A stretch of 64,000 bases of DNA from Chrysophaeum taylorii. Its lineage: Eukaryota > Sar > Pelagophyceae > Pelagomonadales > Pelagomonadaceae. Under the pieces are notes generated by a model. The model did no database searches and had not been told where the DNA came from. It saw only the letters and a program-made list of their open reading frames with translations. The position numbers were made by a program, and so were the translations under genes. This document shows positions 339 to 61,905 of the stretch, piece after piece (position 1 is the first letter of the stretch; each line of letters begins with the position of its first letter). The stretch spans positions 185,381 to 249,380 of the forward strand of contig JAQMWT010000555.1 in assembly GCA_029834535.1 (NCBI GenBank). The letters are read 5' to 3'.

Positions 339-976
339 CAGCGTTGGGAATTCACTTCAGCAAGTGAACGTGAACCACTATATTGGTCAAGTGATTTGAA
401 GTGAACACGTCGCCCTACGTGGTTAAAGTGAACCCTTGTGAAGTGAACACACACTTTTTTTCTTTTAACGCCAGTGCCGACGGTCCCTGTCGCGTCAGTT
501 TTTTCCGAGCCACCCGCGCGCTATTGCCTCCTAGGTCTGGTGCTCTTGGATTCATTCGCGTTTAATTCGGGGCGAAGGAGGAGTTACTACCGTGGATGGG
601 GTTCAGTGTTTCTTACTACTTTAGGCGACGTGAACGAACGAACAACCTCGGTATCTTCGTCTGGTTCTTCCTCATCATCCTCCATCTCCAAAGAGCCTTC
701 GGGGAAGGAATCATGGTGGTGTGTCCCGGCGTGTTTGAAAAACTCGGTCTCGTGTCCGAGGTCCCTCTACTTAATCCGGGCCGCCGCCGCCGCAATGAAG
801 AAATTCTTGTTGTTCATGCGCAGTATGCTGGCAACAACTTTGCCCGTCTCGTCTGCGCCGAGCATGACCGTGTTTCTTTCCCTCGGTCGTCAGGAGACAA
901 GATTTCCAATGCCCAGGCTGCGCTCACAGTAGTAGCTCTGCGCGCCATGTGTGTGTACTACCAATCAAAAAAACCC

Positions 977-3083
977 TTAGAGGAGGCTCTCGCCATGTCC
1001 GGAAGGAAAGAAGGAACCCATACTGCTCCTTGGTGAGCGGTCGATACAGCTTTCCAATGTCGAGCACAGCAGCCAGATCTGTGAAGCTGAGACTTCATCC
1101 TTCTTCTCAAGCTCGGGATAATGCTCTTTCCAGTTGAGCGATCTCGACAGCCTGATGGTCCATTGAGTGAAGACCTGTTCAAACTCCTCCACATTGAAAA
1201 AATCGGGCATCTGGTTCTCAGGCATAACAAAAGAAGGCACGTGGCCACTAATGTCGTCGTCCCAAGCGTCGTCGGGTGCGTCGAGTGCCGCCAAGAGACT
1301 GCGGGCAGGCGCAGACTCGGAGGGCAGCGCAGACTCGGAGGAGGAAGTATTTGCCTTTTCGCGGTGGTGGAATGCAGTCCGTGCGTAAATCACATATTCT
1401 TCCTTGAGCAAGCAACTTCCTGGCCCGAGCTTTCTGATTGGAGGACGACAGGTGCCGGCAGTTGATAGTCCGAAAGTCAAGAAGGAAGGCAATCAGCTCG
1501 CGATCGTTGAATAATTCGTAGTCGAAGTGACGCACGTAGTTGTTTTCATTATTCCCGCAACAAAAACGACGCTCACATTCGAGAATAGTAGCCCGCTCAA
1601 GACAGATTATGCCGGTCTCGCTGAGGTCGTCAACATCGACAGTCTTACGTGGCATGGATTTCGCAGTTATGTTCGGGAGATCAATGACTCTTCTAGCGTG
1701 CTCGCAGAGACTCGATCATGTTGTGCCTGATCAATGCGGCGCACGCCCCTTATGGTATAAGTGTTCGTGTTGCACGAAAACAACGGCCTCATTCGTTATA
1801 GCAATAAATCGCCTCGAACTCAGCCAACGCCACCCATTGCTCATCACTGATTGATTGTCCAGGGGAGTCCAATGTTGGTAGCCGTGTACAGTTTGAGCAC
1901 GTGGTGCATACGCAGCAAGGAACGAATAAGTTGGTATCGCGCCAGGAACCTCGTCTTATTGAGGTCGAGCTTGAGCTTCGGCGATTTATTTCCCCGGCTG
2001 TAATGGCAAAAGCGCATGCAGATCCTTCAAACGTGTGCCGTGAGAAGAAAAGTACGTGGCTCCACCGTGGCCACCACTGTTCAGCAGCTCCTGGCCTGCT
2101 GGGAATGGATTGATCACCTGCTTGCCTCTGGATCGTGTCAAGTCGCCGCATGCCGCTGCCGAGATTTTTGAAATATATCATGCACATGTCACACGCTTCG
2201 ACCTCAACAAAAAATTCTTCGGCGATGCGAATTACAGCCCGGTCTTGAACAATGGCTGCGGCCGCCAAATCGATATCGATTCTCGCACGCTCTGCGACCA
2301 CAGAACGGAGCAGAGAGGCCGTGCCGGAATCGGTTCCGTCGTCAGCTGGAACGAGGCCCACGCGGGAACACCGTCTCAACGCCACACTCCAATCGGGCCA
2401 GATGAAGGATAGGCCAATGGCCTGTCGCTTGAACTTCTTATCCTTGAGTGTCCCGCCGCCGTCATGCAGCACCCCCCTGGGCGAATGGATTGCCGAAAGC
2501 CGCTTCTTAACACTCCGTAACGACGTGCTTCAAGATTCGAACAACAAAGCTAAAATATTCCGCGTCCACCCATTCATCAAACAGCGCCTTTCGAGTCGTG
2601 AACGAGGGCGCTTGCCTTTCCCTTTGCCACCACCGCGGTAATAATACGCCGCCTCAATTATTTGGTTGCGATGATCTTCGTCGTCAGTCAAAGGTGCGCT
2701 TGGAAAAAAATCCGCTGCGACGTGCACACGTAGTGCCGAGCCGAGAACACCATCATCAGGGAAGAGTGCTTTGCCTGGCTGGGCATGGCCATGATGTATC
2801 TCGTAATATCGTCCGATTTACCCTTCGAGGCTGCTGCCACAACGCCCACGGCCGTCATAAAAAACGCCCTCTTTTTCTTGGTCTGTCTTCTGTTTCTTGG
2901 TGAGCTGTCAACACGTCCCAGCTCGTCGAATCCTCCTCCTCCGGATGCGCAGCCTTGAAGTGGGCCGGCCCCAAGAGGGCTTGGTCGTCTGCCTGCCATG
3001 TGCCCTTCTTGAAGTCTCTCGTCACCACCTTGAGGCGCTCCCAGCAGCACCGGATACACACACATGCGTCGTCGCCTTCCCAC
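977..3083 (-). pseudogene. transposase-like gene of copy A, frameshifted
   Basis: Minus-strand frames hold conserved blocks shared with copies B and C. In coding order they are: a possible BED/C2H2 finger near 3060-2900 (CIRC, then HFKAAH); a block with HDGGGTLKDKKFKRQ near 2470-2420, followed by a CDM motif; a block with VINPFPAG in copy B; a KLKLDLNKTR block; and an ORF (1655-1248) starting MPRKTVDVDDLSETG with a Cys-Gly-Asn-Asn-Glu-Asn segment. The last part (ENQMPDFFNVEEFEQVF) sits in another frame (ORF 1492-977), because copy A has one extra A near 1386 relative to copy C. The blocks are scattered over all three frames, so no complete protein can be made. Assignment as a hAT-like transposase is inference. 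Confidence 0.5.
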
Positions 3084-3197
3084 TGGTCAGTCAGTCAACG
3101 CGGTGGGTGGTCGGTCAGGATGATGCTCCTTCAGTCGACGCACGAAATGTCCCACCACCACCCCTTGGAAAAGAGAAACCTGGTTGTTGATCGTCCA

Positions 3198-4071
3198 GGC
3201 TTGGCGACAGCCGCATCCGAGGGGCGGGGGGGGCGCGAGAACAGCGTTTTGCTGGGCCGGGGGGGGGGCGCGCTAAAGATTTTGTGCAAGGGGGGGAGTC
3301 TGCGACCTCCCAGCACGAAAGTTTCGTGCTAGGGGGGTGTCTGACCTGACCACCGCGCACGCACTCTAGAAGAAGAGGCCTCGAATGCTTGCCGAGCGCC
3401 CAGGTGGTCAGCAGAGCTATAGAACTACGGACGGCCACGGACTGGGTGCCGGCGACTCGGCAGGGAGGGAGCACCTCTGCTAGCCTCGATCTCTTCGCGA
3501 GCATTAAAGGAGTTAAAAGAATCGGACAAGAGGAGGCGCAGCTGCAGGAAAATAAATCAGCTTAGCCATACGCGCGACTCCGAGCCAGAGTAAAACTTGT
3601 CGTCGGGATATTGTACGCGCTCTGTCCTCAAGACGACGATGATGACGACAACGAACCGCCCCCCGCGAACATGGCGAGGTCGACGAGCCCGCCGTCGATG
3701 AGGAGGATGATGAGAGCCCAGCTCCCGAGGAGAACCGAACCTCCGCGACTACCTCATGGACCTCGGAGATGCCACATTCTACCATGAGGCCGCCACAATT
3801 CATTCCTTGCGACGACCCATTCACCGTCGCCAAAACACCCCCTTTCGAAACCCAATTTTCCCTGCCTAACTACTGTAGCCTACACTGTAGAGCCACTACT
3901 CAGGTGCTGCGGTGGCCGTAGTCCTGGGGCGATCCCTCTGCGCTATAGGGGAGGCCTAGGGCAGGGGATACCGACCCCCCAGCGCTAAGCTTTCGTGCTG
4001 GGGGGGGGGTGTTCTTTTCGTGTTCTCGCCCCCCCCCCCCCTCCACCTCCGGATGCGGCTGTCGCCAAGCC
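3198..4071. mobile_element. nested 874-bp TIR element inside copy A
   Basis: Copies B and C read straight through GATCGTCCACTTTTGG at this position. Copy A is interrupted after GTCCA and resumes with CCACTTTT. The insert starts GGCTTGGCGACAGCCGCATC and ends in its exact complement; the inverted repeat is 22 bp and perfect. CCA is present on both sides, giving a 3-bp target duplication. Poly-G and poly-C tracts just inside the ends extend the pairing imperfectly. Three-base duplications are typical of PIF/Harbinger and CACTA elements, but the termini are not CACTA and no transposase is recognisable. It is probably non-autonomous. A 106-codon minus ORF (3833-3513) inside is Ser and Arg rich and unassigned. 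Confidence 0.85.
3309..3341. repeat. short palindrome CCCAGCACGAAA / TTTCGTGCTAGGG
   Basis: An inverted repeat with about 12-base arms lies inside the nested element. A related half, CTTTCGTGCTGGGG, recurs near 3990-4004 by the other end. It could form a hairpin and probably belongs to the imperfect inner terminal repeats. Confidence 0.6.
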
Positions 4072-4193
4072 CCACTTTTGGTGCCGGGTGTGTTTGTTCC
4101 ACGTCACAACATCGACGTCGCAATCGGCTCGTTCTCGCGAACTTCCTCCTTCTGTTAACACCGCGTTTAGTTTCCTCCTCATCATCAACATTA

Positions 4194-4223
4194 TATCCTC
4201 CTCCTCCTCCTCCTCCTCCTCCA
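4194..4223. repeat. (CCT)n microsatellite
   Basis: A run of CTC/CCT triplets lies near the right end of copy A. On the minus strand it encodes a poly-Glu stretch. Copies B and C have only short versions, so the run expanded in this copy. Confidence 0.85.
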
Positions 4224-4400
4224 GGTAGCGCGGCTCGACTTGGCTCATCAGCAGCAGACGGGGTCAGGGTCAGGCCGTCAGCCGAAGTGAATGAACGTGA
4301 AGTGAACGTTGGACTTCGGACGAAAAATTAATTTTTTGGGTGAACCAAAAAATTCAGCGAACCTAGTGAAGTGAGCCCGGTGTGAATATTCTCAACGCTG

Positions 4401-4985
4401 TTTTTTACTTTGTATACAAGTTGTAGTATTGTTGATTTCGTTGCCGCACAGGATTCCAGATCTTGGCCGTTTGACGGACGGCCGCTTCCAAGTTCGCGTA
4501 ACAATCCTTTTTTTTTTTCTTAGGAAGGGTTTGGAAATTTGGTGGTGAACGCGAAGGACACTCGGGATTGCAGCAGCGGGCTCGTCGCGACGAGAAGGAG
4601 GGCGACCCTACGTCGGAAGAATTCGGAAGCCAAAGTGGCCGAGCGGGATCAAGAAAAGGAATGCCTCGAGCGCGACGCTTTCGAGAACAGGAGAGGTCTT
4701 CTGGCTCGACGACCAACCGGGCGCCAACACGATGCAACGGGAAAGCTTGGTCGGGATTGCCGACCGATCGCTCGCGCCAAAGCTGCTGCAGCAGCCGTAA
4801 ATCATCATCGATCGATTTTCCCGCACCGACCGTCTCTGTGGCCGTTCGTTGGCCGCCTTCTTCCTCAAGCGGTGCAATTTCATCATCGAACTTTTGAAGT
4901 TCAACACCATTTATCCGACACTAGACCTTAGAGAGGGTTATTATAAAGCGAAGAATGAACTACCACAAATCATCAAAATCAAAGG
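4401..4985. other. intergenic, no supported gene
   Basis: The stretch between copy A and the secreted-protein gene has overlapping ORFs of 100-130 codons on both strands (4405-4737 minus, 4539-4931 plus, 4608-4910 minus). None shows a domain, and frames on both strands are equally open, as expected for GC-rich DNA by chance. The last 60 bases may hold the promoter of the next gene, but I see no clear motif. Confidence 0.3.
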
Positions 4986-16081: not shown

Positions 16082-16596
16082 TAGGGATCGGTCAAGTTTG
16101 GTCAACAAGTTTGGTGAATTGTTTTCATGTTTGCTCTATTATAATGTATGATTAAGGAAAAACTCACAAGTTTGGTCACTTTCCATAGAAGTTTGGTCAG
16201 TTAAGTTTGGTGTCACTCCTCCGAAGTTGCATTAAGTTTGATCAATCAGCCCTTCAAGTTTGATTAATTTCCTTGTAAGTTTGGTCAACAAGTTTTTATC
16301 ACTACTCCTCAAACTTCCACAGTATTGACCAAACTTCGGCTTTTTAAATCAAACTTAAGGAGGCTTTTTAAGGAAGCGCTTTTGGTTTTGCGAAAATAAT
16401 GCTTTAAACACGAGAGCTAGGTGCTGCAGCTACGCAGAATCAATCTACCGTGGCGTTACACGCGCGGCATGGGCAAACCCCCCCATGACCGCCCGCCTTA
16501 GAAGGAGGTCCGTCCTAAGACAGCGCGGCGGCGATACGCAAGGAGAGCGAGCAGCGACACGCGGCCCCGAGAGCAGATTCCCACGGCTTGGCGAAC

Positions 16597-17220
16597 TTAA
16601 GCTGGGCCCATTCTCGTACCTTCCATCGTTCGTAGAAGCCACCCAAACCGCGACTCACCACGGTGGTGTTGCCGTGGTCGTGCGTCATTCTTCAACAACA
16701 AGCGGACATCGGACACCAGACTTATTACATGGTCTGCGTGAGACGGATCACCCCATTCTGCATCCCAAAATCTCTCCGAGAGGGAGCGCGTCTTTGATAA
16801 TCGACTCGGGGTTAAGAACGCGAAACTCGACGACCTCGAGAAACTGCGCGAGCACCGCCCCAGAAGCACCCAAAGATTTTAGTCCCACACTTGTGCGGGG
16901 CCGTACAGGACCACGTTCGGGAGTTCCTCATCGTCGCGTACCCGATCCGGAGTTAGCTGTCCAGCTTGATCACGGGACGGCAACGCGAGCACGTGCCGTT
17001 ACGCCAGCATAAACAACTCGCACGACCATAAGTGAACACCTCCTTATCATCCTCCTCCTCGCGCATCTCGACAACCCCTCCCTGCCGCAAGATCTCCCCG
17101 GGAGCTGCTGCTGCACCGTCGAGCACTGTACGAGAAAGTCGGCAAATACAAGCTGCGGCGCGAAGGGATGTCAAGACGTCGACAGCCTCGCTCCGGAAGA
17201 GATCGCTGACACCACCCCTG
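16597..17220 (-). pseudogene. T2a coding fragments, downstream part
   Basis: The minus frame 17174-16953 carries TSLRAAACICRLSRTVLDG, an acidic stretch, and a CLCWRNGTCSRC segment that could bind metal, ending KLDS-stop. Another frame downstream (near 16869) reads LGASGAVLAQFLEVVEF, then a block that in copy b is FWDAEWVDPSYADRVSLV. These blocks are conserved in copy b, so they were once coding. Function unknown. Confidence 0.45.
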
Positions 17221-17561
17221 TCATTCTAACCCAGTCATCATCAGTACGAGTAGATATATGACAAGTTTGATGTGATTGTTCGAAATTTGATCACACCAAA
17301 TTGAATGCCACCAAGTTTGCCCATACAAACGCATCAACATGCGAATACTCACAGAACAACATCCACAAACAAGGCCTGCGTAAGACATCGCTGATACCAC
17401 GCTGTTTCGTCGTCGCCCAAGATTATTCGGATGCGCCTTATTAGTTCGATGTTTATGACAGACTACAGCGACCGATCCCGGTTCGTCATCTCGTGCCTTT
17501 AGCGGATGACATTGCTGCAGATGTCTATCAAACGCATATGCTGAGAAGAGCCGCCTGACTG

Positions 17562-17650
17562 ACGAACTAACTAACTAACTAACTTCAGACGTCTCCCGAG
17601 CATGGGAGCCAGGCCGGACCGGCAGGAGCCGGTACGGAATCACAGAGGAA
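17562..17650. repeat. shared module M (TAAC repeat plus CTCCCGAGCATGGGAGCC), instance 1
   Basis: (CTAA)n is followed by TTCAGACGTCTCCCGAGCAT and GGGAGCCAGGCCGGACCGGC. Related blocks lie at 30690-30765 (inverted), 55490-55545, 56210-56285 and 62680-62765, each in a different local context. Confidence 0.8.
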
Positions 17651-17652
17651 AA

Positions 17653-18454
17653 TCACGCAGTTGGGGCAGAGGCGAGGGACGAGGACGGACTTGTTGATGG
17701 TGGACCGCCACTGCGCGCGGTCTTGTGCGAGGTCGTGCAAAAGCGTCGCAGGCCGCGGACGTGTTGGTCCATGAACAATCGACCTGTCCGTCGCGTTCTG
17801 TCCAACCGAGCGAACCCCATCCCAGCGCGGACTTTCCGGGTGCTAACCGGCCAGCGAGCCGCCTGACTTGCCCTCCATAAAGCCCTTGATGAGGACCGAC
17901 ACGGCCTCAGAAGTGCTTCGCGCGATAGCTGGATCTTTGTCGGCAAGAAGGTCCCGAGAGCAGGTGTGCCTTTTACAACACACGTGACGGTATTGCCTAC
18001 TTGCACATCACAACGAGCAGCACGCACATAAAAGCTGCATCTTGCATGTAGCACTTGAACGACAGCGCTGTCGCGCTGTAGACCATGTTGTACGCGCCGT
18101 CCACTTGTGTGACTGCTGCAAGTCGGCCTCGAGAACACGCATGCTGAACTTGGCATCTTGGTTAGATCGAGTAAAGTGGTGCCTCGTATTTGCGCGCTCT
18201 GAGCTGCGACAGCGTAATCGGCGATCTCTCATAGTCGTTTACCACCTTCGTCTGGGCACGCGACTTCTTGTTTTCTTTCTCGGCGTCGTGGTCAACCGAC
18301 GTCGGCGTGTTACCACCACGCGACCTGAGCGACGACGAAACCCGCATCGATACCGTGTTCGTTTCGAAGTCGAAGGACGCTCCGGAGTCACCACAGCGCG
18401 ACGACATGCAGAACCGCTGAAAGCTTGATCACGAACAAGGCCTTGTTTTGTCAC
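17653..18454 (-). pseudogene. T2a coding fragments, upstream part
   Basis: The minus frame 18407-18162 carries TPTSVDHDAEKENKKSRAQT and ends LYSI-stop. Next come DAKFSMRVLEADLQQ, then a frame reading the RTGRLFMDQHVRGLRR block, and an NCVICLC-type Cys cluster conserved in copy b. Partial copy c (34832-35281) keeps much of this in one frame. The family is unknown. Confidence 0.45.
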
Positions 18455-18643
18455 GACGAACCGTATGTTTTTTGCTCTCTAAAAGTACAAGTTTAGTCAA
18501 CCAAGAGACGGCTTGACTGTAAACTTAAGTGACCACCAAACTTGTTGTTGAGGGTTTTCGGTGACCAAACATATATGGTGGTTGGAAACTTGACTTTTCG
18601 GTGACCAAACTTATATGGTGGTTGGAAACTTGACTTTTCCCTA

Positions 18644-24166: not shown

Positions 24167-27100
24167 CAGCGTTGGGGCGTGATCTGAAGTGAACACGTCG
24201 CCCTACGTGGTTAAAGGGAACCTTTGTGAAGTGAACACACACTTTTTTTTTAACGCCACCGCCGACGGTGGTCCCTGTCGCGCCCCGCGCGCTATTGCCT
24301 CCTAGGTCTGGTACTCTTAGATTCATTCGCGTTAAATTTCGGGGCGAAGGAGGAGTTACTACCGTGGATGGGGTTCAGTGTTTCTTCTTACTTTAGGCGA
24401 TGTGAACGAACGAACGAACGAACAACCTCGGTATCTTCGTCTGGTTCTTCCTCATCAACCTCCATCTCCGAAAAGTCTTCGGGGGGGAATATGAGGTGGT
24501 GTGTCCCGGCGTGTTTGAAAAACTCGGTCTCGCGTCACACGAGGTCCCTGTACTACTTAATCCGGGCCGCCGCCGCCGCCGCAATGAAGAAATTCTTGTT
24601 GTTCATGCGCAGTATGCTGGCAACAACTTTGCCCGTCTCGTCTGCGCCGAGCATGACCGTGTTTCTTTCCCTCGGTCAGTCAGGAGACAAGATTTCCAAT
24701 GCCCAGGCTGCGCTCACAGTAGTAGCTCTGCGCGCCATGTGTGTGTACTACCAATTGAAAAAACCCTTAGAGGAGGAGTCGAGCACAGCAGCCAGATCTG
24801 TGAAGCTGAGACTTCATCCTTCTTCTCAAGCTCGGGATAATGCTCTTTCCAGTTGAGCGATCTCGACAGCCTGATGATCCATAGAGCGAAGACCTGTTCA
24901 AACTCCTCCACATTGAAAAAATCGGGCATCTGGTTCTCAGGCATAGCAAAAGAAGGCACGTGGCCACTAATGTCGTCGTCCAAAGCGTCGTCGGGTGCGT
25001 CGAGTGCCGCCAAGAGACTGCGGGCAGGCGCAGACTCGGAGGGCAGCGCAGACTCGGAGGAGGAAGTATTTGCCTTTTCGCGGTGGTGGAATGCAGTCCG
25101 TGCGTAAATCACATATTCTTCCTTGAGCAAGCAACTTCCTGGCCCGAGCTTTCTGATTGGAGGACGACAGGTGCCGGCAGTTGATAGTCCGAAAGTCAAG
25201 AAGGAAGGCAATCAGCTCGCGATCGTTGAATAATTCGTAGTCGAAGTGACGCACGTAGTTGTTTTCATTATTCCCGCAACAAAAACGACGCTCACATTCG
25301 AGAATAATAGCCCGCTCAAGACAGATTATGCCGGTCTCGCTGAGGTCGTCAACATCGACAGTCTTACGTGGCATGGATTTCGCAGTTATGTTCGGGAGAT
25401 CAATGACTTCTAGCGTGCTTTGCAGAGACTCGAATATGTTGTGCCTGATCAATGCGGCGCACGCCCCGAGGTATAAGTGTTCATGTTGCACCAAAACAAC
25501 GGCCGCATCGGCTATAGCAATAAATCGCCTCGAATTCAGCCAACATTGCTCATCACTGATTGATTGTCCAGGGGAGTCCGATGTTGGTAGCCGTGTACAG
25601 TTTGAGCACGTGGTGCATACGCAGCAAGGAACGAATAAGTTGGTATCGCGCCAGGAACCTCGTCTTATTGAGGTCGAGCTTGAGCTTCGGCGATTTATTT
25701 CCCCGGCTGTAATGGCAAAAGCGCATGCAGATCCTTTAAAACGTGTGCCGTGAGAAGAAAAGTACGTGGCTCCATCGTGGCCACCACTGTTCAGCAGCTC
25801 CTGGCCAGCTGGGAATGGATTGATCACCTGCTTGCCTCTGGATCGTGTCAAGTCGCCGCATGCCGCTGCCGAGAGTTTTGAGATATATCATGCATGTCAC
25901 ACGCTTCGACCTCAACAAAAAAATCTTCGGCGACGCCAATTTTGGAGCCCGGTCTCTTGAACAATGGTTGCGGCCGCCAAATCGATATCGATTCCCGCAC
26001 GCTCCGCGACCACAGAACGGAGCAGAGAAGCCGTGCTGGAATCGGTTCCGTCGTCAGCTGGAACGAGGCCCTACGCACACCGTCTCAACGCCACACTCCA
26101 ATCGGGCCAGATGAAGGATAGGCCAATGGCCTGTCGCTTGAACTTCTTATCCTTGAGTGTCCCGCAGCCGTCATGTAGCACCCCCCTGGGCGAATGGATT
26201 GCCGAAAGCCGCCGCTTCATAAATAACACTCCGTAACGACGTGCTTCAAGATTCGAACAACAAAACAACAATATTCAGCGTCCACCCATTCGAACGGCGC
26301 CTTTCGAGTCATGAACGAGGGCGCTTGCTTTTCCCTTTGCCACCACCGCGGTAATAATACGCCGCCTCAATTAGGTTGCGATGATCTTCGTCGTCAGTCA
26401 AAGGTGCGCTTGGAAAAAATCCGCTGCGACGTGTACACGTAGTGCCGAGCTGAGAACGCCATCAGGGAAGAGTGCTTTGCCTGGCTGGGCATGGCCATGA
26501 AGTATCTCGTAATATTCGATTTACCCTTCGAGGCTGCTGCCACAACGCCCACGGCCGTCATAAAAAACGCCCTCCTTTTCTTGGTCTGTCTTCTGTTTCT
26601 TGGTGAGCTGTCAACACGTCCCAGCTCGTTGAATCCTCCTCCTCCGGATGCGCAGCCTTGAAGTGGGCCGGCCCCAAGAGGGCTTGGTCGTCTGTCTGCC
26701 ATGTGCTTTTCTTGAAGTCTCTCGTCACCACCTTGAGGCGCTCCCAGCACTTCCGGATACACACACATGCGTCGTCGCCTTCCCACTGGTCAGTCAGTCA
26801 ACGCGGTGGGTGGTCAGGATGATGTTCCTTCAGTCGACGCACGCAGTCCCACCACCACACCTTGGAAAAGAGAAACCTGGTTGTTGATCGTCCACTTTTG
26901 GTGCCGGGTGTGTTTGTTCCACGTCACAACAACATCGACGTCGCAATCGGCTCGTTCTTGTGAACTTCCTCCTTCTGTTCACACCGCGTTTGAATTCCTC
27001 CTCATCATCAACGTTATCCTCTCCACCTCCAGGTAGCGCGGCTCGACTTGGCTCATCAGACTTGGCCGTCAGCCAAAGTGAATGAACGCGAAGTGAACAT

Positions 27101-29721: not shown

Positions 29722-29883
29722 AAGGGAAAAGTCAAGTTTCCAACCACCATATAAGTTTGGTCACCGTAAACCTTCAACAAGTTTGGTCACTTAAGTTTGG
29801 TCAAGCCGTCTCTTGGTTGACTAAACTTGTACTCTTAGAGAGCAAAAAACATTCGGTTCGTCGTGACAAAACAAGGCCCGCCG

Positions 29884-30690
29884 TGATCAAGCTTTCAGCG
29901 GTTCTGCACGTCGCGCTGTGCCTCCGGATCGTCCTTCGACTTCGAAACGAACACGGTATCGATGCGGGCTTCGCTCAGGTCGAGCGGGAGCGTGGTGGTA
30001 ACACGCCGACGTCGGTCGACCACGACGCCGAGAAAGAAAACAAGAAGTCGCGTGCCCAGACGAAGGTAAACGACTGTGAGAGATCGCCGAGTACGCTGTC
30101 GCAGCTCGGAGCGCGCAAAAAATACGAGGCTCCACTTTACTCGATCTGACCAAGATGCCAAGTTCAGCAGGTGTGTTCTCGAGGCCGACTTGCAGCAGAT
30201 GATGTTCGACACGGGCAGCAAGTTGACGGCGCGTACAACATCATGGTCTACAGCGCGACAGCGCTGTCGTTCAAGTGCTATATGTAAGATGCAGCGTTTA
30301 TGTGCGTGCTGGTCGTTGTGATGTGCAAGTAGACAATACCGTCACATGTGTTGTAAAAGGCACACCTGCTCTCGGGACCTTCTTGCCGACAAAGATCCAG
30401 CTATCGCGCGAAGCACACTTCTGCGAGGCCGTGTCGGTCCTCATCAAGGGCTTTATGGAGGGCAAGTCGTCAGGCGGCTCGCTGGCCGGTTAGCACCCGG
30501 AAAGTCCGTGTTGGGATGGGGTTCGCTCGGTTGGGCAGAGCGCGACGGACAGGTCGATTGTTCGTGGACCAACACGTCCGCGGCCTGCGACGCACGACCT
30601 CGCACAAGACCGCGCAGTGGCGGTCCACCATCAACGAGTCCGTCCTCGTCCCTCGCCTCTGCCCCACAACTGCGTGATTTGCCTCTGTGA
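29884..30690 (+). pseudogene. T2b coding fragments, upstream part
   Basis: Fragments include TPTSVDHDAEKENKKSRAQT, ending LYSI, then DAKFSRCVLEADLQQMMFD, and later HNCVICLCDSAPAPAG with a closing PCSGEV. The Cys spacing C-x2-C-x-C could start a RING-like or other zinc site, but the partner residues are missing. Frames change three times. Confidence 0.45.
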
Positions 30691-31002
30691 TTCCGCACCG
30701 GCTCCTGCCGGTCCGGCCTGGCTCCCATGCTCGGGAGAGGTCTGAAGTTAGTTAGTTAGTTATTCAGTCTGTCAGGCGGCTCTTCTCGGCATATGCGTTT
30801 GATAGACATCTGCAACAGTGTCATCCGCTAAAGGCACGAGATGACGAACCGGGATCGTTCGCTGTAGTCTGTCATAAACATCGAACTAATAAGGCGCATC
30901 CGAATAGTCTTGGGCGACGAAACAGCGTGGTATCAGCGTTGTCTTGCGCAGGCCTTGTTTGTATGTGTTGTTCTGCGAGTGTTCGCATGTTGATGCGCGT
31001 GT

Positions 31003-31365
31003 ATGGTCAAACTTGGAGGCATTCAATTTGGTGTGATCAAATTTCGAACAATCACATCAAACTTGTCATATTTTACTGATGATGACTGGGTAAGAATGAC
31101 AGGGGTGGTGTCGGCGATCTTCCGGAACGAGGCTGTCGACGTCTTGACATCCCTTCGCGCCGCAGCTTGTATTTGCCGACTTTCTCGTACAGTGCTCGAC
31201 GGTGCAGCAGCAGCTCCCGGGGAGATCTTGCGGCAGGGCGGGGTTGTCGAGATGCGCGAGGAGGAGGAGGATAAGGAGGTGTTCACTTACGGTCGTGCGA
31301 GTTGTTTATGCTGGCGTAACGGCACGTGCTCGCGTTGCCGTCCCATGATCAAGCTGGACAGCTAA
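31003..31365 (+). CDS. T2b ORF, 120 residues, unknown function
   Basis: The frame reads from VKLGGIQFGVIKFRTITSN (inside a sub-repeat) through TDDDWVRMTGVVSAIFRNEA and TSLRAAACICRLSRTVLDG to CLCWRNGTCSRCRP, then a stop. The stretch from TSLRAA onward is conserved in copy a with only a couple of residue changes, so selection acted at some time. The start is a GTG, so it is probably an exon. It may be a DNA- or metal-binding piece of the element's protein. Confidence 0.4.
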   Translation: MVKLGGIQFGVIKFRTITSNLSYFTDDDWVRMTGVVSAIFRNEAVDVLTSLRAAACICRLSRTVLDGAAAAPGEILRQGGVVEMREEEEDKEVFTYGRASCLCWRNGTCSRCRPMIKLDS

Positions 31366-31429
31366 CTCCGGATCGGGTACGCGACGATGAGGAACTCCTG
31401 AACGTGGTCCTGTACGGCCCCGCACGAGT

Positions 31430-31714
31430 GTGAGACTACAATCTTTGGGTGCTCCTGGGGCGGTGCTCGCGCAGTTTCTCGAGGTCGTCGAGTTTCGCGT
31501 TCTCGACCCCGAGTCGATTATCAAAGACGCGCTCCCTCTCGAGTTTTGGGATGCAGAATGGGTTGATCCTTCTTACGCAGACCGTGTAAGTCTGGTGTCC
31601 GATGTCCGTTTGTTGTTGAAGAATGACGCACGACCACGGCAACACCACCGTGGTGAGTCGCGGTTTGGGTGGCTTCTACGAACGATGGAAGGTACGAGAA
31701 TGGGCCCAGCTTAA
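31430..31714 (+). pseudogene. T2b coding fragment, downstream part
   Basis: The frame reads LGAPGAVLAQFLEVVEFRVL, DPESIIKDALPLEFWDAEW and SLVSDVRLLLKNDARP. It matches the corresponding frame of copy a. No family is recognised. Confidence 0.4.
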
Positions 31715-32212
31715 GTACGCCAAGCCGTGGGAATCTGCTCTCGGGGCCGCGTGTCGCTGCCCGCTCTCCTTGCGTATCGCCGTGCTGTCTTAGGACTGAC
31801 CTCCTTCTAAGGCGGTCATGGGGGGGTGTCCATGCCGCGCGTGTAACGCCACGGTAGATTCTGCGTAGGTGCAGCACCTAGCTCTCGTTTTTAAAGCATT
31901 TTCGCACCAAAAGCGCTCACGCGCCCCCTTAAAAAGCCTCCTTAAGTTTGATTTAAAAAGCCGAAGTTTGGTCAATACTGTGGAAGTTTGAGGAGTAGTG
32001 ATCAAACTTGTTGACCAAACTTACAAGGAAATTAATCAAACTTGAAGGGTTGATTGATCAAACTTAATGCAACTTCGGAGTGACCAAACTTAACTGACCT
32101 AACTTCTATGAAAAGTGACCACACATGTGAGTTTTTCCTTAATCATACATCAAAATCGAGAAAACATGAAAGAAATTCACCAAACTTTTTGACCAAACTT
32201 GACGGATCCCTA

Positions 32213-34263: not shown

Positions 34264-34831
34264 CTGGCTACCAGATTCACGAACTCTCGTGGCAAGTCAC
34301 ATAGCGTATACTATGTCAGCACGCGACGAGGATTTATTCCTTGCTTTGCGCCAAACTCTTCTGTGCACCTCCCTTTGCAGTTACGTCTCTGCGCCACTCT
34401 CTCATCTTTTTCTTCTGCTTTTGAAGACCCTTCCGCGTTTCTTTCCAGGGTTGCTCTTTGCGCCACCCGCTCTTTTTCTCTGACCTCATCCATCCTGGCT
34501 CTTTGGGTTTCCATAATAATAATAATAAGGAAAAGTTTGCAACCACCACGTAAGTTTGATCACCGCAAACCCGCAATAAGTTTGATCGCTCAATTTTGAT
34601 CAATCCAGATCTGGATTGACCAAACTTGTACTCTTAGAGACCAAACATAAGGTTCGTCGTGACAAAAAAAAACAAGGGCCGCCGGCAACTTGATCATGCT
34701 TTCAGCGGCTCTGTTCATGTCGTCGCGCTGTGACTGACTGACTGACTGACTGACTCCGGAGCGTCCTTCGACTTGGAAACGAACGACGAGGAGGACGGTA
34801 TCGATGCGGGTTTCGTCGTCGCTCGGGTCGC

Positions 34832-35281
34832 GTGGTGTTGGTGTTAAACACGCCGACGTCGGTTGACCACGACGCCGAGAAAGAAAACAACAAGTCTAAG
34901 CGTGTCCAGACGAAGATGGTAAACGACTACGAGAGATCTCCGCGTAAAACGTTGTGTCGCAGCTCAGAGCGTGAAAACAAACAAACAAACAAACAAACAA
35001 ACACGAGGCTAGTCCACTTTGCTCGAGCTAACCAAGATGCCAAGTTCAGCATGTGTGTTCTCGAGGCCGACTTGCAGCAGCATCTGATGTTCGACACGGG
35101 CGGCAAGTTTTTAGACGGCGCGTACAGCAACAACATGGTTAACAACAACAGCGCGACAGCGTTGTCGTTTAAGCGCAAGATACTACAAGGCTGCAGCTTC
35201 TATGTGCCTGCTGCTCATCAAGGGCTCCGTGGAAGGCAAGTCGGCTCTACTCGGCATATGCGTTCGACATCCGCATCATGA
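34832..35281 (+). pseudogene. T2c coding frame, best-preserved upstream part
   Basis: One open frame joins TPTSVDHDAEKENN, an expanded poly-NKQT stretch, NQDAKFSMCVLEADLQQHLM, FDTGGKFLDGAYSNNMVN and SATALSFKRKILQGCSFYV. In copies a and b the same pieces are split by frameshifts. The start here is GTG, so the true N-terminus is uncertain. No known fold is recognised. Confidence 0.45.
34974..35002. repeat. (AAAC)n microsatellite within T2c
   Basis: AAACAAACA repeat that inserts an NKQT-rich stretch into the T2c reading frame. Confidence 0.85.
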
Positions 35282-36602: not shown

Positions 36603-39600
36603 CAGCGTTGGGAATTCACTTCAGCAAGTGAACGTGAACCACTTCACGAGCCACGCAATATTGGTCAAGTGATTCGAAGTGAACACGTCACCCTACGTGG
36701 TTAAAGTGAACCTTTGTGAAGTGAACGCCACTTTTTTTTTTAACGCCAGCGCCGACGGTCCCTGCCGCGCCCCGTCAGTTTTTTCCGTGCCCTCCGCGCG
36801 CTATTGGCTCCTAGGTCTGGTACTCTTAGATTCATTCGCGTTCAATTTCGGGGCGAAGGAGGAGTTACTACCGTGGATGGGTTCAGTGTTTCTTCTTACT
36901 TTAGGCGATGTGAACGAAACGACGACCTCGGTATCTTCGTCCGGTTCTTCCTCATCAACCTCCATCTCCGAAGAGTCTTCGGGGGGGAATCATGGTGGTG
37001 TGTCCCGGCGTGTTTGAAAAACTCGGTCTCGCGTCACACGAGGTCCCTGTACTACTTAATCCGGGCCGCCGCCGCCGCCGCAATGAAGAAATTCTTGTTG
37101 TTCATGCGCAGTATGCTGGCAACAACTTTGCCCGTCTCGTCCGCGCCGAGCATGACCGTGTTTCTTTCCCTCGGTCAGTCAGGAGACAAGATTTCCAATG
37201 CCCAGGCTGCGCTCACAGTAGTAGCTCTGCGCGCCATGTGTGTGTACTACCAATTGAAAAAACCCATAGAGGAGGAGTCGAGCACAGCAGCCAGATCTGT
37301 GAAGCTGAGACTTCATCCTTCTTCTCAAGCTCAGGATAATGCTCTTTCCAGTTGAGCGATCTCGACAGCCTGATGATCCATAGAGCGAAGACCTGTTCAA
37401 ACTCCTCCACATTGAAAAAATCGGGCATCTTGTTCTCAGGCATAGCAAAAGAAGGCACGTGGCCACTAATGTCGTCGTCCCAAGCGTCGTCGGGTGCGTC
37501 GAGTGCCGCCAAGAGACTGCGGGCAGGCGCAGACTCGGAGGGCAGCGCAGACTCGGAGGAGGAAGTATTTGCCTTTTCGTGATGGGATGCAGTTCGTGCG
37601 TAATCACATATTCTTCCTTGAGCAAGCAACTTCCTGGCCTGAGCTCTCTGATTGGAGGACGACAGGTGCCGGCAGTTGATAGTCCGAAATTCAAGAAGGA
37701 AGGCAATCAGCTCGCGATCGTTGAATAATTCGTAGTCGAAGTGACGCACGTAGTTGTTTTCATTATTCCCGCAACAAAAACGACGCTCACATTCGAGAAT
37801 AATAGCCCGTTCTAGACAGATTTTGCCGGTCTCGCTGAGGTCGTCAACATCGACAGTCTTACGTGGCATGGATTTCGCAGTTATGTTCGGGAGATCAATG
37901 ACTTCTAGCGTGCTCGCAGAGACTCGATCATGTTGTGCCTGATCAATGCGGCGCACGCCCCCAGGTATAAGTGTTCATGTTGCACCAAAACAACAGCCGC
38001 ATCCGTTATAGCAAAAATCGCCTCGAATTCAGCCAACATTGCTCATCACTGATTGTCCAGGGGAGTTCAATGTTGGTAGCCGTGTACAGTTTGAGCACGT
38101 GGTGCATACGCAGCAAGGAACGAATAAGTTGGTATCGCGCCCGGAACCTCGTCTTATTGAGGTCGAGCTTGAACTTCGGCGATTTATTTCCCCGGCTGTA
38201 ATGGCAAAAGCGCATGCAGTTCCTTCAAGCGTGTGCCGTAAAAAAAGTACTTGGCTCCATCGTGGCCACCACTGTTCAGCAGCTCCTGGCCAGCTGGGAA
38301 TGGATTGATCACCTGCTTGCCTCTGGATCGTGTCAAGTCGCCACATGCCGCTGCCGAGATTTTTGAGATATATCATGTCACACACACGCTTCGACCTCAA
38401 CAAAAAATTCTTCGGCGACGTCAATTGCAGCCCGGTCTTGAACCAAATCTATATCGATTCCCTCACGCTCCGCGACCACAGAACGGAGCAGAGAAGCCGT
38501 GCTGGAATCGGTTCCGTCGTCAGCTGGAACAAGGCCCTACGCACACCGTCTCAACGCCACTCCAATCGGGCCAGATGAAGGATAGGCCAATGGCCTGTCG
38601 CTTGAACTTCTTATCCTTGAGTGTCCCGCAGCCGTCATGTAGCACCCCTCTGGGCGAATGGATTGCCGAAAGCCGCCGCTTCATAAATAACACTCCGTAA
38701 CGACGTGCTTCAAGATTCGAACAACAAAACAACAATATTCAGCGTCCACCCATTCGAACGGCGCCTTTCGAGTCATGAACGAGGGCGCTTGCCTTTCCCT
38801 TTGCCACCACCGCGGTAATAATACGCCGCCTCAATTAGGTTGCGATGATCTTCGTCGTCAGTCAAAGGTGCGCTTGGAAAAAAATCCGCTGCGACGTGTA
38901 CACGTAGTGCCGAGCCGAGAACGCCATCATCAGGGAAGAGTGCTTTGCCTGGCTGGGCATGGCCATGAAGTATCTCGTAATATCGTCCGATTTACCCTTC
39001 GAGGCTGCTGCCACAACGCCCACGGCCGTCATAAAAAACGCCCTCCTTTTCGTGGTCTGTCTTCTGTTTCTTGGTGAGCTGTCAACACGTCCCAGCTCGT
39101 CGAATCGAATCCTCCTCCTCTGGATGCGCAGCCTTGAAGTGGGCCGGCCCCAAGAGGGCTTGGTCGTCTGTCTGCCACGTGCCCTTCTTGAAGTCTCTCG
39201 TCACCACCTTCAGGCGCTCCCAGCAGCACCGGATACGCACATGCTCCCTTCCCACTGGTCGGTCAGTCAACGCGGTGGGTGGTCAGGATGATGTTCCTTC
39301 AGTCGACGCACGCAGTCCCACCACCACACCTTGGAAAAGAGAAACCTGGTTGTTGATCGTCCACTTTTGGTGCCGGGCGTGTTTGTTCCACGTCACAACA
39401 ACATCGACGTCGCAATCGGCTCGTTCTCGTGAAGTTCCTCCTTCAGTTAACACCGCGTTTGAATTCCTCCTCATCATCAACATTATCCTCCACCTCCAGG
39501 TAGCGCGGCTCGACTTGGCTCATCAGAGACTTGGCCGTCAGCCAAAGCGAATGAACGTGAAGTGAACATTGGACTTCGGACGAAACTTTTCAGTGAAGTG

Positions 39601-49043: not shown

Positions 49044-49268
49044 TCAGCGATATACAAGAAAGCCGCGAGATACTTGGTGTCGTCGCTCGCTGACGGGCGG
49101 CGCGAAGAACTTGCCGGAAGCCTCCTTGAAGAGCTCGAGCGCGCTGGCATCGTCGTAGCTAGGGACGGTGACATACTTGGAGAAGAGTTCGTCGCGCATG
49201 CCGTGATTGAAACAGTCCAAGGCGCCGGCTTCTGCGCCGTCGCGCTCGAACTTGGTGTGTGCCATCAC
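49044..49268 (-). CDS. 74-residue ORF, unknown
   Basis: It reads MAHTKFERDGAEAGALDCFN, then HGMRDELFSKYVTVPSYDDA and SALELFKEASGKFFAPP. Composition looks like real protein. The usable ATG is the second codon. It lies just downstream of the ankyrin remnant on the same strand and could be an exon of it or of another gene. No family is recognised. Confidence 0.35.
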   Translation of the reverse strand: MMAHTKFERDGAEAGALDCFNHGMRDELFSKYVTVPSYDDASALELFKEASGKFFAPPVSERRHQVSRGFLVYR

Positions 49269-49870
49269 GAAGAACCACGACGCCTCGAGCGCGCAACATC
49301 AAGGACGGCCCCAAAACAGTACTGTTCGATACAATTGATTGACTCAACCAGGGGGACGCGAGATCGACGAGGACTGCGCGATCGGCCCCGCGCTCCACTC
49401 CTACCGGAGCACGGTGCCGACGACTGCAGCGCGAACACTTTTTGGTCGTTCGGTTCTCTTCCAGAACCAAAACCTGAATGTTATGATCCTCTATGAGAGT
49501 GAGAAACGACATCGCGATCCATATCGACCGGCATCTTGCCTCGTCTGCATCCACGCGGCGGGCGTCGGCGCCATACCAACAACCGAACCACGTCGACGCG
49601 GAGCTCGCGAAATGAAGCGCAGCCGGCGCTATCGGCGCCTTGCTTGGGCGAAACGCCGTTGTTGGCGTTCGAGTTGACGTCGGCGGCGCGTGATGTCTCG
49701 AGCAGAAGCCTCCGCCGCGGCCGTTCAGGCTCGCGACGCGAAGAAGAGCGTAAAAGTCGACCTCGACGGTTGACGCGATCTCCGCGTGGCTCGCCGCTTC
49801 GAGGGGGGACGAACACCTGTCTTGAATCCTCGACCTCCACGCAGCCTTCAGCATCTTGGCTTTTTTTCGG
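49269..49870 (-). pseudogene. ankyrin-repeat gene remnant 1
   Basis: In minus order: MLKAA (the start shared with the other two ankyrin genes), ADVNSNANNGVSP, ALHFASSAST, DVVRLLV, then YGADARRVDAD, ending EENRTTKKCSRCSRRHRAP. These pieces match the last repeats and the tail of the intact gene at 59481-60554 but lie in different frames. Most central repeats are deleted. It is a dead paralogue. Confidence 0.6.
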
Positions 49871-50155
49871 GTAAGTGTTATCGGATCCGTCGCAAGTCTA
49901 GTTGTGGCGGGTAGACTAGCGATAATGACGTAGGGATACGTGGTGCAGGGGTAAGTCTTCCTCACACAGGTGCTGGAAAAGAAAGAAAAAGAAAAAGGGG
50001 TAAGTGAGGTGTGAAAAAGACGTCATGAGAGGCATTGTGGCATAATAAGACAGGAGATGCCATGCGAAGTCACGAGGTGAGGTAACGAGCACCAAGCCGA
50101 AGGAAGGGAGGAGTTTCCGAACTACGGGTGAAGAAGATATCGCCGAGATTGATTG

Positions 50156-54545: not shown

Positions 54546-55440
54546 CAAAAACCCCGCGCTGGGAATCATGGGGTTCGGCAGAACGCGACGGGAGTCAATT
54601 CTTCGTAGACCAACACGTCCGCGGCCTGCGACGCTTTTGCACGACCTCGCAGAAGACCGCGGTCCGCCATCAACACTCCTCGCCCCTCCAACTGCGAGAT
54701 TTTGTTTCCTCTGTGATTCCGCACCGGCTCCTGAGGGGCCACAACAAGCCCTTTCACCCAGCCCAAACCGCGGGTGATACCACCACCGACGCTCCCCGAT
54801 CTCAGAGCGTAAACACTCGCGCCATCTCCAAAGCGCCAGAGACAGAGCCTATACCCATCGTCCGCAAGTCTCAGCTCGGCCGCGATGCCGCCATCCGAGT
54901 CATAGAGCTTGGTGGAGGCATGAAGACCGCAGGCCGAAAAAAATCGCGGCGTGGTTGGACGTCAGCTAAACAGCGGTCGCAAAAAAAGGATGTCGGGGCC
55001 GAGGAGATAATCAAGGCGCACGCGCCGCCGCCAAGGCCGCCGCCGGAGTTTCCGCGCAAGGAGGCCTTCCTTGCTGCCCAACGGGGGAAATGAATTTGAG
55101 AAGAAGATCATGGACGAGTGCAACAAGAAGTGGGTGGAAAACTCGGTCAGGCATACGACGAGAGGAAGCTTCTTCGTACCTCGAGCAGGCTGTCAGCAAC
55201 GTCGAGGGCTACTCAGTCGAGAAGATCAAGCAGATGCTCGAGACCCAGAATCTCGGACCGTTCACCACCCGGGACGAACGCCGGAAAGATCATCACCTCA
55301 GTACGGTAGTTCAAGATCCAACTCGCCTGGCTCCCCGAGAGCCTTAAGTTCGCACCCGGTGATGAGAAGAGAACGCCTGCACGCCGCCACCACCCAAGAA
55401 CAAGAAGAAGAAAGTTGACGATGTATTCAGACTCAACCCC
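54546..55440 (+). pseudogene. T2-related sequence with Lys-rich coding frames
   Basis: 54560-54740 matches the T2 region that encodes the DQHVRGLRR block and the CDSAPAPxGP block. The frame then continues into non-T2 coding (54713-55093): RKSQLGRDAAIRVIELGGG, KKSRRGWTSAKQRSQKKDVG. Another frame (55090-55347) has YLEQAVSNVEGYSVEKIKQM and LETQNLGPFTTRDER. These may be the missing part of the T2 protein, or a captured gene. A basic, Pro-rich linker separates the two parts. No family is recognised. Confidence 0.4.
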
Positions 55441-55489: not shown

Positions 55490-55545
55490 TCTAACTAACT
55501 AACTAACTAACTAACTTCAGACCTCTCCCGAGCATGGTCGCTCAT
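55490..55545. repeat. module M, instance 3
   Basis: (TAAC)n, then TTCAGACCTCTCCCGAGCAT, followed by unrelated GGTCGCTCATCGGG. Confidence 0.75.
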
Positions 55546-56078: not shown

Positions 56079-56610
56079 TTACGGCTGGGGTTGGACGTCG
56101 GTCATCTCGATGGCCTCGTCTACAGTTGCGTCGGCAGCATGATTTGGGACATCGACGGGCTCTGGCGCAGGACGCGAGGACTCGGCCTGCGCCGCGCGAC
56201 CGACGAGCAGCGATCTAACTACGTAACTAACTTCCGACCGCTCCCGAGCACGGGAGCCAGGCCGGTCCAGAATCACGGAGGTGTGTACCGTAGAGTGATC
56301 GTCAGGCTTGTCGGCACGCGACGCGGAGACTCGAGTCTCCGCGATGTGACTGACAAACCAACTCATCGCTAAGGTAGTAACAGTCTTTCTCAAATCGCAG
56401 GTATCCATACCAAAAAGGGACTGTAGCATTGTCATCGCGAATCATCACCGAAGTCGGTTGCACCACGATGATCTGAGTCAACCGAAGAAGAGAGACGTCG
56501 TGAAGAAGCTGCTCGCGGAGAGGTGTCTGGGCGCTCGCGGGCATCGATGCAGATGGCGTCTGGGGACGCGAGGACGTTGAAGTACCAGGCGTAGCGCGCG
56601 CGGGGGTCTA
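56079..56610 (-). pseudogene. unassigned minus-strand coding frames next to module M
   Basis: The frame 56544-56302 reads LLHDVSLLRLTQIIVVQPTS, then FWYGYLRFEKDCYYLSDELV. The frame 56435-56079 runs through module M (RPGSRARERSEVS) to an acidic tail. The VSHIAE piece is shared with 62.85 kb. It may be a decayed T2-related protein. Confidence 0.3.
56210..56285. repeat. module M, instance 4
   Basis: TAACTACGTAACTAACTTCC, then GCTCCCGAGCACGGGAGCC and AGGCCGG. The flank on the right (GTCAGGCTTGTCGGCACGCG, GATGTGACTGACAA) is shared with instance 5. Confidence 0.75.
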
Positions 56611-59480: not shown

Positions 59481-60554
59481 CTACACGCGTCGACGACGAC
59501 TGCAGCGCGGACACTTCTTGGTCGTGCGGTTTTCTTCCCGAACCAACACAAACCGAAAACCAATATCCTCTCCGACGAGCTCGTCGAGAGGAGATCGGGT
59601 CAGCGCGGCAACGACACCTCGATGGCCGCGAATTCGCGCGAGGTCGACGGGCGTGTTGCCATTCACATCCACGCGGCGGGCGTCGGCACCGTACCCAATC
59701 AACAACCGAACCACGTCGACGCGGCCGGCGCAGCTAGCATAATGAAGCGCCGTGGCACCGTTGTTGTCCCTGGCACGGTCGACGTCGGCGCCCTTTTCGA
59801 GCAGCAACCGAACCACTTTGACCTCGCCCGTTAGCGCGGCGAGATGAAGTGGCGTGTCGCCGACGTCCATGGCGCGGTTGACGTCTGCTCCGCCTTTTTC
59901 GAGCAACGACCGAACCACTTCCGAGTGACCGTTCCGGCTCGCCGCACACAGCGCCGAACGACCGCCGCTAGCGGTCCTGTTGGCGTCGGCGCCGTGCGAG
60001 AGTAACAACCCGACGATGGCGACAAAGCCTTTATCGGCGGCCGCGCAGAGCGGAGTAACGCCGTCGTTCGTGGCGCGGTTCGCGTCGACGGTCGGCTCCC
60101 GCAAAAGCGCCGATACAATTTTCGCGTGGCCGTGCTGGCTCGCGACGTACAACGCCGTGTACCCGTCGTTGCTTCTTCCGTTAACGTCGGCGCCGTTCGC
60201 GAGCAACAACTGAGTAACAGAAAGGTTGCCGTGCGAGCTAGCGACGTACAACGACGAGAATCCCTCGTTGCTCGTCTCGTTCACGTCAGCGCCCTTCGCG
60301 ACCAACAGGCGCGCGACCTCGACGTGGCCGCGCGCGCTCGCGGCATAGAGCGCGGAACAACCGTCATCAGCGGTCTGGTTCACTTCGGCGCCGCGGGAGA
60401 TTAATAATCGGACGAGATCGACATACCCATGCATGCTCGCCACCATGAGAGGCGAAACGTTATCATCAGTGATAGCGTCGGAACAACCACAACCAGAAGA
60501 ATCAAGCAGCCGCCGCACTGCGCGCACATCTCCGCTCAAGCACGCGTCCAGCAT
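59481..60554 (-). CDS. ankyrin-repeat protein, 357 residues, with CxxC tail
   Basis: The start is the ATG in MLDACLSGDVRAVRRLLDSS; the frame opens 18 bases earlier at a TTG. About ten ankyrin repeats of roughly 33 residues follow, with clear SPLMVASMHGYVDLVRLLIS and TPLHLAALTGEVKVVRLLLE consensus and GADVN loops. The last repeat leads into ENRTTKKCPRCSRRRRV, a basic tail with one CxxC that is conserved in the two broken paralogues. Ankyrin arrays bind proteins; the tail could bind metal if another exon supplies more Cys, but I see none downstream. Intronless, no lesions. The role is probably a scaffold or interaction protein; target unknown. Confidence 0.8.
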   Translation of the reverse strand: MLDACLSGDVRAVRRLLDSSGCGCSDAITDDNVSPLMVASMHGYVDLVRLLISRGAEVNQTADDGCSALYAASARGHVEVARLLVAKGADVNETSNEGFSSLYVASSHGNLSVTQLLLANGADVNGRSNDGYTALYVASQHGHAKIVSALLREPTVDANRATNDGVTPLCAAADKGFVAIVGLLLSHGADANRTASGGRSALCAASRNGHSEVVRSLLEKGGADVNRAMDVGDTPLHLAALTGEVKVVRLLLEKGADVDRARDNNGATALHYASCAGRVDVVRLLIGYGADARRVDVNGNTPVDLARIRGHRGVVAALTRSPLDELVGEDIGFRFVLVREENRTTKKCPRCSRRRRV

Positions 60555-60617
60555 TCTTTCTTTCTTACACAACGCTGCTGTTGCCTGTTGGCGACGCCTC
60601 TCTCTACCCTAGCCCCA

Positions 60618-61640: not shown

Positions 61641-61905
61641 ATCCCTCATACCCCACAAACCCACCCACATCCTTCATGCTCCCCCCACACACCCCCCTCT
61701 TAGCAGTCGACATTTAAAGACAAACAAACACCCCACAAACCCACCCACATCCTTCATGCTCCCCGCACACACCCCCCTCTTAGCAGTCGACATTTAAAGA
61801 CAAACAAACACCCACACACCCCCCTCTTAGCAGTCGACATTTAAAGACAAACAAACAAACATCCCTCCTACCCCACAAAACCACCCACATCCTTCATGCC
61901 CCCCA
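61641..61905. repeat. 80-bp tandem array
   Basis: Units of CCCACAAACCCACCCACATC, CTTCATGCTCCCC, CACACACCCCCCTCTTAGCA and GTCGACATTTAAAGACAAAC start at 61651 and 61731. A partial third unit follows, then a diverged fourth. Confidence 0.85.

Follow-up and report, generated by a model that had tools for sequence, protein, structure and literature searches.

T2, a repeat with three copies in the window analysed here (the whole 64-kb stretch C555:185381-249380), is very probably a non-autonomous, internally deleted Mutator-like element (MULE), a relative of a 4.8-4.9 kb family in the same genome. Most of its insertions are flanked by exact 9-bp duplications. Its tips and subterminal DNA are shared with the long elements and no transposase core is found within it, as in a non-autonomous derivative. 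By the features tested T2 belongs to the MULEs, as a family that is new but of a type already known. No description of the family was found in a search of open-access papers for algal and stramenopile MULEs and for TTA/TAA targeting.

Structure of T2 and Its Copies in the Window

An earlier note on this DNA had described T2 as a DNA transposon family with AAGTTTGG-rich ends. This is borne out, the ends being precise and the subterminal repeats rich in AAGTTTGG. All three related copies that the note had named were recovered, copy a on the forward strand and copies b and c on the reverse strand, with c partial and diverged (Table 1). T2 runs from GGGATCCGTCAAGTTT to AAACTTGACTTTTCCC, and the consensus ends, as read from the aligned copies, are GGGATCCGTCAAGTTTGG... 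and ...AACTTGACTTTTCCC. Terminal inverted repeats are present, with 13 of the 16 tip bases in inverted repeat; they are short for a TIR-MULE. The termini had been read as TAGGG. The real termini are GGG...CCC, and the TA or AA that precedes the GGG closes a 9-bp target-site duplication. As had been observed, AAGTTTGGTCA units lie in both orientations close to both ends of copies a and b. Allowing at most one mismatch, the window holds 24 matches to AAGTTTGGTCA where 1.14 are expected, and none of 100 shuffled windows reached that number.

Copy a is an outlier among the T2 copies in its identity to the consensus. Its right tip is duplicated (a 40-bp duplication), and no 9-bp target-site duplication was found at its flanks. 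Copy c has a degraded left tip, has lost its right end, lacks the SINE-like insert described below and is preceded by a (TAA)n tract.

TABLE 1. Coordinates of T2 features in the window and of the frames of the long element L059.
Sequence	Feature	Position	Strand	Remarks
Window	T2 copy a	16084-18641	+	Older, diverged copy; 92-93% to T2 consensus; consensus alignment
Window	T2 copy b	29724-32210	-	97% to T2 consensus; ends located, consensus alignment
Window	Copy c	about 34533-35267	-	Old, truncated relative; 34533-35216 is 74% identical to the T2 consensus
Window	Left 9-bp target-site duplication of copy b, TAAAAAAAA	29715-29723		Exact
Window	Right 9-bp target-site duplication of copy b, TAAAAAAAA	32211-32219		Exact
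Window	Left terminal inverted repeat of copy a (GGGATCGGTCAAGTTT)	16084-16099	+	
Window	Right terminal inverted repeat of copy a (GGGAAAAGTCAAGTTT on - strand)	18626-18641	-	
Window	Left subterminal AAGTTTGGTCA repeats of copy a	16094-16336		Six +, one -
Window	Right subterminal AAGTTTGGTCA repeats of copy a	18489-18612		One +, two -
Window	Subterminal repeats of copy b, element's right end	29753-29828		
Window	Subterminal repeats of copy b, element's left end	31964-32200		
Window	Nested SINE-like insert in copy a	17561-17855		Missing from L043-L046, where the site is uninterrupted
Window	Nested SINE-like insert in copy b	30481-30770		
Window	Putative transposase N-terminal remnant in copy a (VDHDAEKENKKSRAQT region)	18030-18407	-	tblastn with L059 pieces, E 2e-11, 4e-6
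Window	Putative transposase N-terminal remnant in copy b	29958-30490	+	E 2e-14, 2e-10; stops, frame changes
Window	Putative transposase N-terminal remnant in copy c	34752-35221	+	E 5e-8, 6e-4
Window	ORF2 remnant in copy a	16443-16825	-	E 8e-18
Window	ORF2 remnant in copy b, joins LAQFLEVVEFRVL	31493-31865	+	E 1e-23
L059	N-terminal open frames	189-539; 364-801 (different frame)	+	
L059	Core frame	1281-1841	+	
L059	Second frame	1909-2394	+	
L059	Third frame	2587-3798	+	
L059	ORF2	3786-4505	+	

Target Sites and Insertion Preference

Target sites were counted for 34 insertions, one of two stretches with identical flanks (L009, a duplicate of L010) being left out. Exact 9-bp repeats flank 23 of the 34; in 13 the repeat is TTATTATTA or TAATAATAA, and in the other ten it is non-satellite and varied in sequence, for example TTAAATCAA, TAAGAAAAA and TAAATGCAT. 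The remaining 11, copy a among them, have no exact 9-bp repeat. At other lengths exact flank matches were few (none at 7 bp, one at 8 bp, none at 10 bp, one at 11 bp), apart from 6 bp, the length at which the (TTA)3 register repeats, where 13 of the 34 matched, none of them in the non-satellite set. When the right flanks of the 15 non-satellite insertions were reshuffled, 1000 rounds gave no exact pair. MULE target-site duplications are 8-11 bp in length, usually 9 bp, and those of T2 are of this kind. The TA target duplications that had been suggested earlier are refuted by the exact 9-bp duplications, ten of which lie outside (TTA)n.

The right-hand 9-mer starts with T in 32 of the 34 insertions and ends with A in 30. 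At least three TTA/TAA units occur at the junction in 21/34 insertions, as against 42 of the 63,986 14-mers of the window, the two samples being not strictly matched, with two 14-mers taken per insertion. T2 favours (TTA)n or (TAA)n tracts. In four of 40 stretches (L023, L028, L031 and L034), only a TTA tract separates a T2 copy from related sequence. The flanks of L010, L020, L030 and L033 contain, next to the T2 insertion, a different repeat (GGCCAGTAAGTTC... or the reverse complement of this), perhaps from a second family that targets microsatellites and forms mixed arrays with T2.

Some insertions lie beside start codons. In the 3' flank of L021 (C531) a T2 copy stands directly upstream of an ORF whose first 40 residues resemble gamma-tubulin (PDB, E 1.7e-13) and whose ATG overlaps the target-site duplication. 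An ATG falls within the first 24 bases of 23 of 74 flanks from 37 insertions, a count made with a looser end pattern than that of the target sites and with the L009/L010 duplicate kept. In eight of the 23 the ATG starts an ORF of 100 codons or more (flanks concerned: L011, L021, L025, L039, L043, L045 and L047), compared with 10.8% of 1520 window ATGs; the sample is small and the ORF lengths are limited by the flank end. These counts suggest insertion of T2 near gene starts.

Copy Number and a Nested Insertion

The genome searched comprises 70.8 Mb in 697 contigs. With 16082-18643 as the query, at least 52 stretches matched, and at least 37 of these were near full length, a number that includes copies a and b and two stretches in which one end is missing; the copies are the best 40 of 1502 candidates scored, so the numbers are lower bounds and biased to the copies most like a. 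A 521-base internal piece of T2 was found in at least 40 places (40 of 241 candidates scored), 23 of them in T2 copies already found and 17 further, among which a longer parent with this middle may lie. From 40 stretches, 41 matches of more than 1 kb were obtained, of which 35 with both ends were aligned and the other six dropped. Identity to the consensus is at least 98.6% in 17 of the 35 aligned copies and at least 97.5% in 23, with that of L042 measured over 2278 bases only. The 17, chosen as the closest to the consensus, differ pairwise by a median of 1.2%. An identity of 98.6% or more in 17/35 copies indicates a recent burst, and T2 is a recently multiplied family.

About 295 bp of the near-full copies is missing from L043-L046. 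On both sides of the insert stands the 12-bp repeat GAGCCGCCTGAC, which is single in L043, L044 and L046 and single with one difference in L045. One side of the insert carries (TAAC)n. Parts of the insert match the window at 54572-54733, 55494-55537, 56216-56268 and 62678-62758. These features fit a SINE-like retroposon, a class assigned from the sequence. With this insertion the events can be ordered as MULE deletion, retroposon insertion and burst.

The window contains other repeats and ORFs. A larger repeat has three copies at about 390-3110, 24180-27020 and 36670-39500, which are 63-100% alike by block, and 80-bp units (ACCCCACAAACCCACCC...), 63-99% alike, are repeated at 61650-61949. Two ORFs on the reverse strand (49162-49965 and 59484-60572) have in common the motif EENRTTKKCxRCSRR, which resembles the TnpB/Fanzor zinc finger. 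On the first of these ORFs Pfam Cas12f1-like_TNB gave only 0.045, and it was not listed for the second, in which the motif follows ankyrin repeats (PF12796, 5.7e-76).

The Long Relatives and Their Transposase

With at most one mismatch, the tip pattern occurs at 226 forward and 224 reverse sites of the genome, whereas its reversed form, used as a control, occurs at 14 and 14. Among the tip pairs listed, some are about 4.8-4.9 kb apart, and spacings near 2.5, 3.5 and 7 kb also occur. The long elements examined in full, five in number (L057-L061), measure 4.82-4.90 kb, have the same tips as T2 and are 97.4-98.8% identical to L059. Their 9-bp flanking repeats are exact in L057, L059 and L060 and have one mismatch in L058 and L061. 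The T2 consensus aligns with all five at 1-715 (85-89% identity), 1237-1445 (71-72%) and 1741-2475 (73-74%), the left 715 bp and the right 735 bp being common to T2 and the long elements, and 521 bp of the T2 middle had no DNA match in the five. Because the right end is only 73-74% identical and the 521-bp middle is unmatched, T2 is not a direct deletion of these five copies. The alignments argue for kinship with the 4.8-4.9 kb family and not for direct descent from the copies examined. The true parent may be an unseen subfamily, and T2 probably derives by deletion from a subfamily that is sister to the long elements.

The long elements are predicted to encode a MULE-type transposase that is split over several frames and whose core is homologous to PF10551 ORFs. 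The frames of L059 are presumably exons of one gene, plus ORF2. Among 77 genomic matches listed for the L059 core piece, 33 span 1-187 at 94% identity or more, 31 of these 33 without a stop, and the most remote listed have 25-30% identity. A search of the genome with the Pfam profile PF10551 (MULE) gave eight loci (L049-L056), of which four exceed the cut-off; two whole ORFs of these loci score 27.5 and 25.8 against the Pfam cut-off of 27.6. In tblastn against a small set of subjects, the long-element core matched five of the eight (E 3e-6 to 2e-5). A profile built from L059 and L068-L070 for the core family was run on 1897 partly redundant ORFs and matched only its own family and all eight MULE loci; the reverse profile likewise recovered only ORFs of both MULE groups, in both directions up to E 10. 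E-values between the groups were 6e-8 to 1e-4. In hhalign the core and the PF10551 loci aligned with a probability of 86.5%, and their identity is about 24%.

Pfam found no MULE match on the L059 core and no MULE or SWIM match on the more distant relatives L068-L070, NCBIfam gave nothing significant on the long-element pieces, and a PDB sequence search with one core piece gave no significant match. In tblastn the second core frame and the SWIM (third) frame did not match the PF10551 loci, and no significant Pfam or NCBIfam family was obtained for the N-terminal pieces or ORF2. A MULE-type DDE core is predicted in the long relative, and not in T2, only through the homology to PF10551. Candidate acidic residues in L059 are those of FIDG, of VQD 63 residues on and of NNPAE in the next frame, which by comparison with MULE motifs would be the catalytic D, D and E. 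The third frame additionally has a SWIM-like CxC...PCxC motif (CSCG...LPCVC), in which L068 keeps the four cysteines and L070 lacks the first; the Pfam SWIM score on the long element is sub-threshold (E 0.019, 15.0 bits against a cut-off of 19.6). At the end of this frame (L059 3500-3740), the stretch VPGTVTYARNKFAVTYDNGDDTERYDA is Tudor-like by eye and had no such Pfam match.

The PF10551 loci share the homologous core with the long elements. Unlike T2, they contain neither AAGTTTGG nor CCAAACTT within the 3.2 kb around each match, which together with the identity of about 24% indicates another family than T2. As a source of T2's transposase they were rejected, since none of the eight has AAGTTTGG repeats within that distance.

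Remnants of Coding Sequence in T2

It had been noted that T2 has no recognizable transposase, and no transposase core was matched in T2 itself: tblastn with the core and the third frame of the long element, at a limit of E 0.01, matched nothing there. Matches were obtained with the N-terminal part (E 2e-15) and with ORF2 (E 1e-24), with stops and frame changes. The opinion that the conserved blocks of T2 fit no transposase family did not survive, because elements with the same tips are predicted to encode a MULE-type transposase. Of the four blocks thought to be without known relatives, VDHDAEKENKKSRAQT and LEADLQQ align to the transposase N-terminal part and LAQFLEVVEFRVL runs into the ORF2 match. 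Only TSLRAAACICRLSRTVLDG is still unmatched; it belongs to the T2 middle, for which the five long elements gave no DNA match. The earlier note had named as a refutation of its proposal a match to a known superfamily, and such a match was found through the long relative and not through T2's own letters.

The conserved frames had also been read as a sign of former selection. This does not follow for T2, because the copies have a recent common ancestor. In the shared ORF2 block, the T2 consensus and L059 differ at 19/121, 21/120 and 16/121 of codon positions 1, 2 and 3, respectively (one block, with 23 gap columns). These roughly equal differences leave no trace of coding constraint in the block tested.

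Origin of T2 and Alternative Explanations

If T2 is a deleted MULE, the long elements or their close kin would provide a MULE transposase in trans. This protein would bind both the GGG tips and the subterminal AAGTTTGGTCA repeats, move T2 and join it to the target at 9-bp staggered cuts in AT-rich DNA. The SINE-like insertion would have occurred in one T2 ancestor and been carried along in the later burst.

Alternatively, T2 could represent a new DNA-transposon superfamily that encodes its transposase in the conserved blocks, the long elements having only borrowed its ends. The N-terminal pieces and ORF2 without a significant Pfam or NCBIfam match, the right end at only 73-74% identity to the long elements, the unmatched middle and the one unexplained block of four (TSLRAAACICRLSRTVLDG) would all be in keeping with this. 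However, the blocks are broken by stops and frame changes and align either side of the MULE-like core of the long element, and a MULE-type core between the blocks of same-tip elements would not be expected of such a superfamily. Moreover, the 9-bp duplications and GGG tips fit MULEs, and an excess of differences at the third codon position was not found in the block tested. A new superfamily is very improbable.

The flanks bear on two further explanations. Many insertions read TTAGGG...CCCTTA or AAGGG...CCCTAA, as might a TA-targeting Tc1/mariner-like or a piggyBac/PIF-like element, but ten non-satellite exact 9-bp duplications of varied sequence refute these classes, to which we assign practically no likelihood, and some duplications end in AA or AT before the GGG (TTAAATCAA, TAAATGCAT). 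A Tc1/mariner or other TA-duplicating element was rejected as a candidate, as TA duplication was not found. Spread by microsatellite recombination or segmental duplication, without a transposase, would agree with the three or more TTA/TAA units at 21 of 34 junctions and with SaTar elements, many of whose microsatellite flanks are reported to be inconsistent with cut-and-paste (PMC5907723). The identical flanks of L009 and L010 do mark that pair as a duplicate. The same ten non-satellite insertions with exact 9-bp duplications stand against this mode of spread, and it is extremely improbable. The assignment of T2 to the MULEs removes a supposed new superfamily and leaves a clear annotation family with exact ends, a recent burst, candidate mobilising elements and a nested insertion that can be ordered.

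Comparison with Known MULEs

MuTAnT/AutoMuTAnT are MULEs of Medicago truncatula (PMC4486113). Like T2, MuTAnT has G-run tips (GGGG/CCCC), 9-nt target-site duplications and a strong microsatellite preference, and short non-autonomous copies accompany a 4873-bp, five-exon transposase element much as T2 accompanies its long relatives (PMC4486113). In contrast, MuTAnT targets (TA)n and T2 (TTA)n/(TAA)n, and the MuTAnT TIRs average 47 bp, with 90% of copies of 200-300 bp (PMC4486113), whereas the T2 tips are about 16 bp and its copies about 2.5 kb. A further difference is that the transposase of the long relatives is too diverged for a direct Pfam match. The SaTar/AgS-MULE elements of guayule and rice are non-autonomous MULEs that target microsatellites and stand end to end, SaTar elements forming unbroken arrays (PMC5907723), a layout similar to that of T2 in 4/40 stretches. 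They differ from T2 in their varied microsatellites and, in guayule, in 10-bp duplications and longer TIRs (PMC5907723). The (TTA)n bias of T2 is a further case of microsatellite targeting by MULEs and could be used to probe target recognition.

VANDALs are also MULEs. Those of Arabidopsis resemble T2 in having degenerate TIRs (those of T2 are short) and clustered short motifs in noncoding parts, and they resemble the long elements in having further ORFs besides the transposase (PMC10398659). In VANDALs the motif clusters are bound by the anti-silencing protein VANC (PMC10398659), whereas ORF2 of the long relatives matches no Pfam or NCBIfam family. By analogy, the VANC-bound clusters are a possible model for the AAGTTTGGTCA arrays. 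An unlikely but more far-reaching reading is that T2 and its relatives form a diverged MULE lineage that, apart from MuTAnT and SaTar, might have evolved both (TTA)n targeting, often beside start codons, and a AAGTTTGGTCA array read by ORF2 in the manner of VANDAL and VANC.
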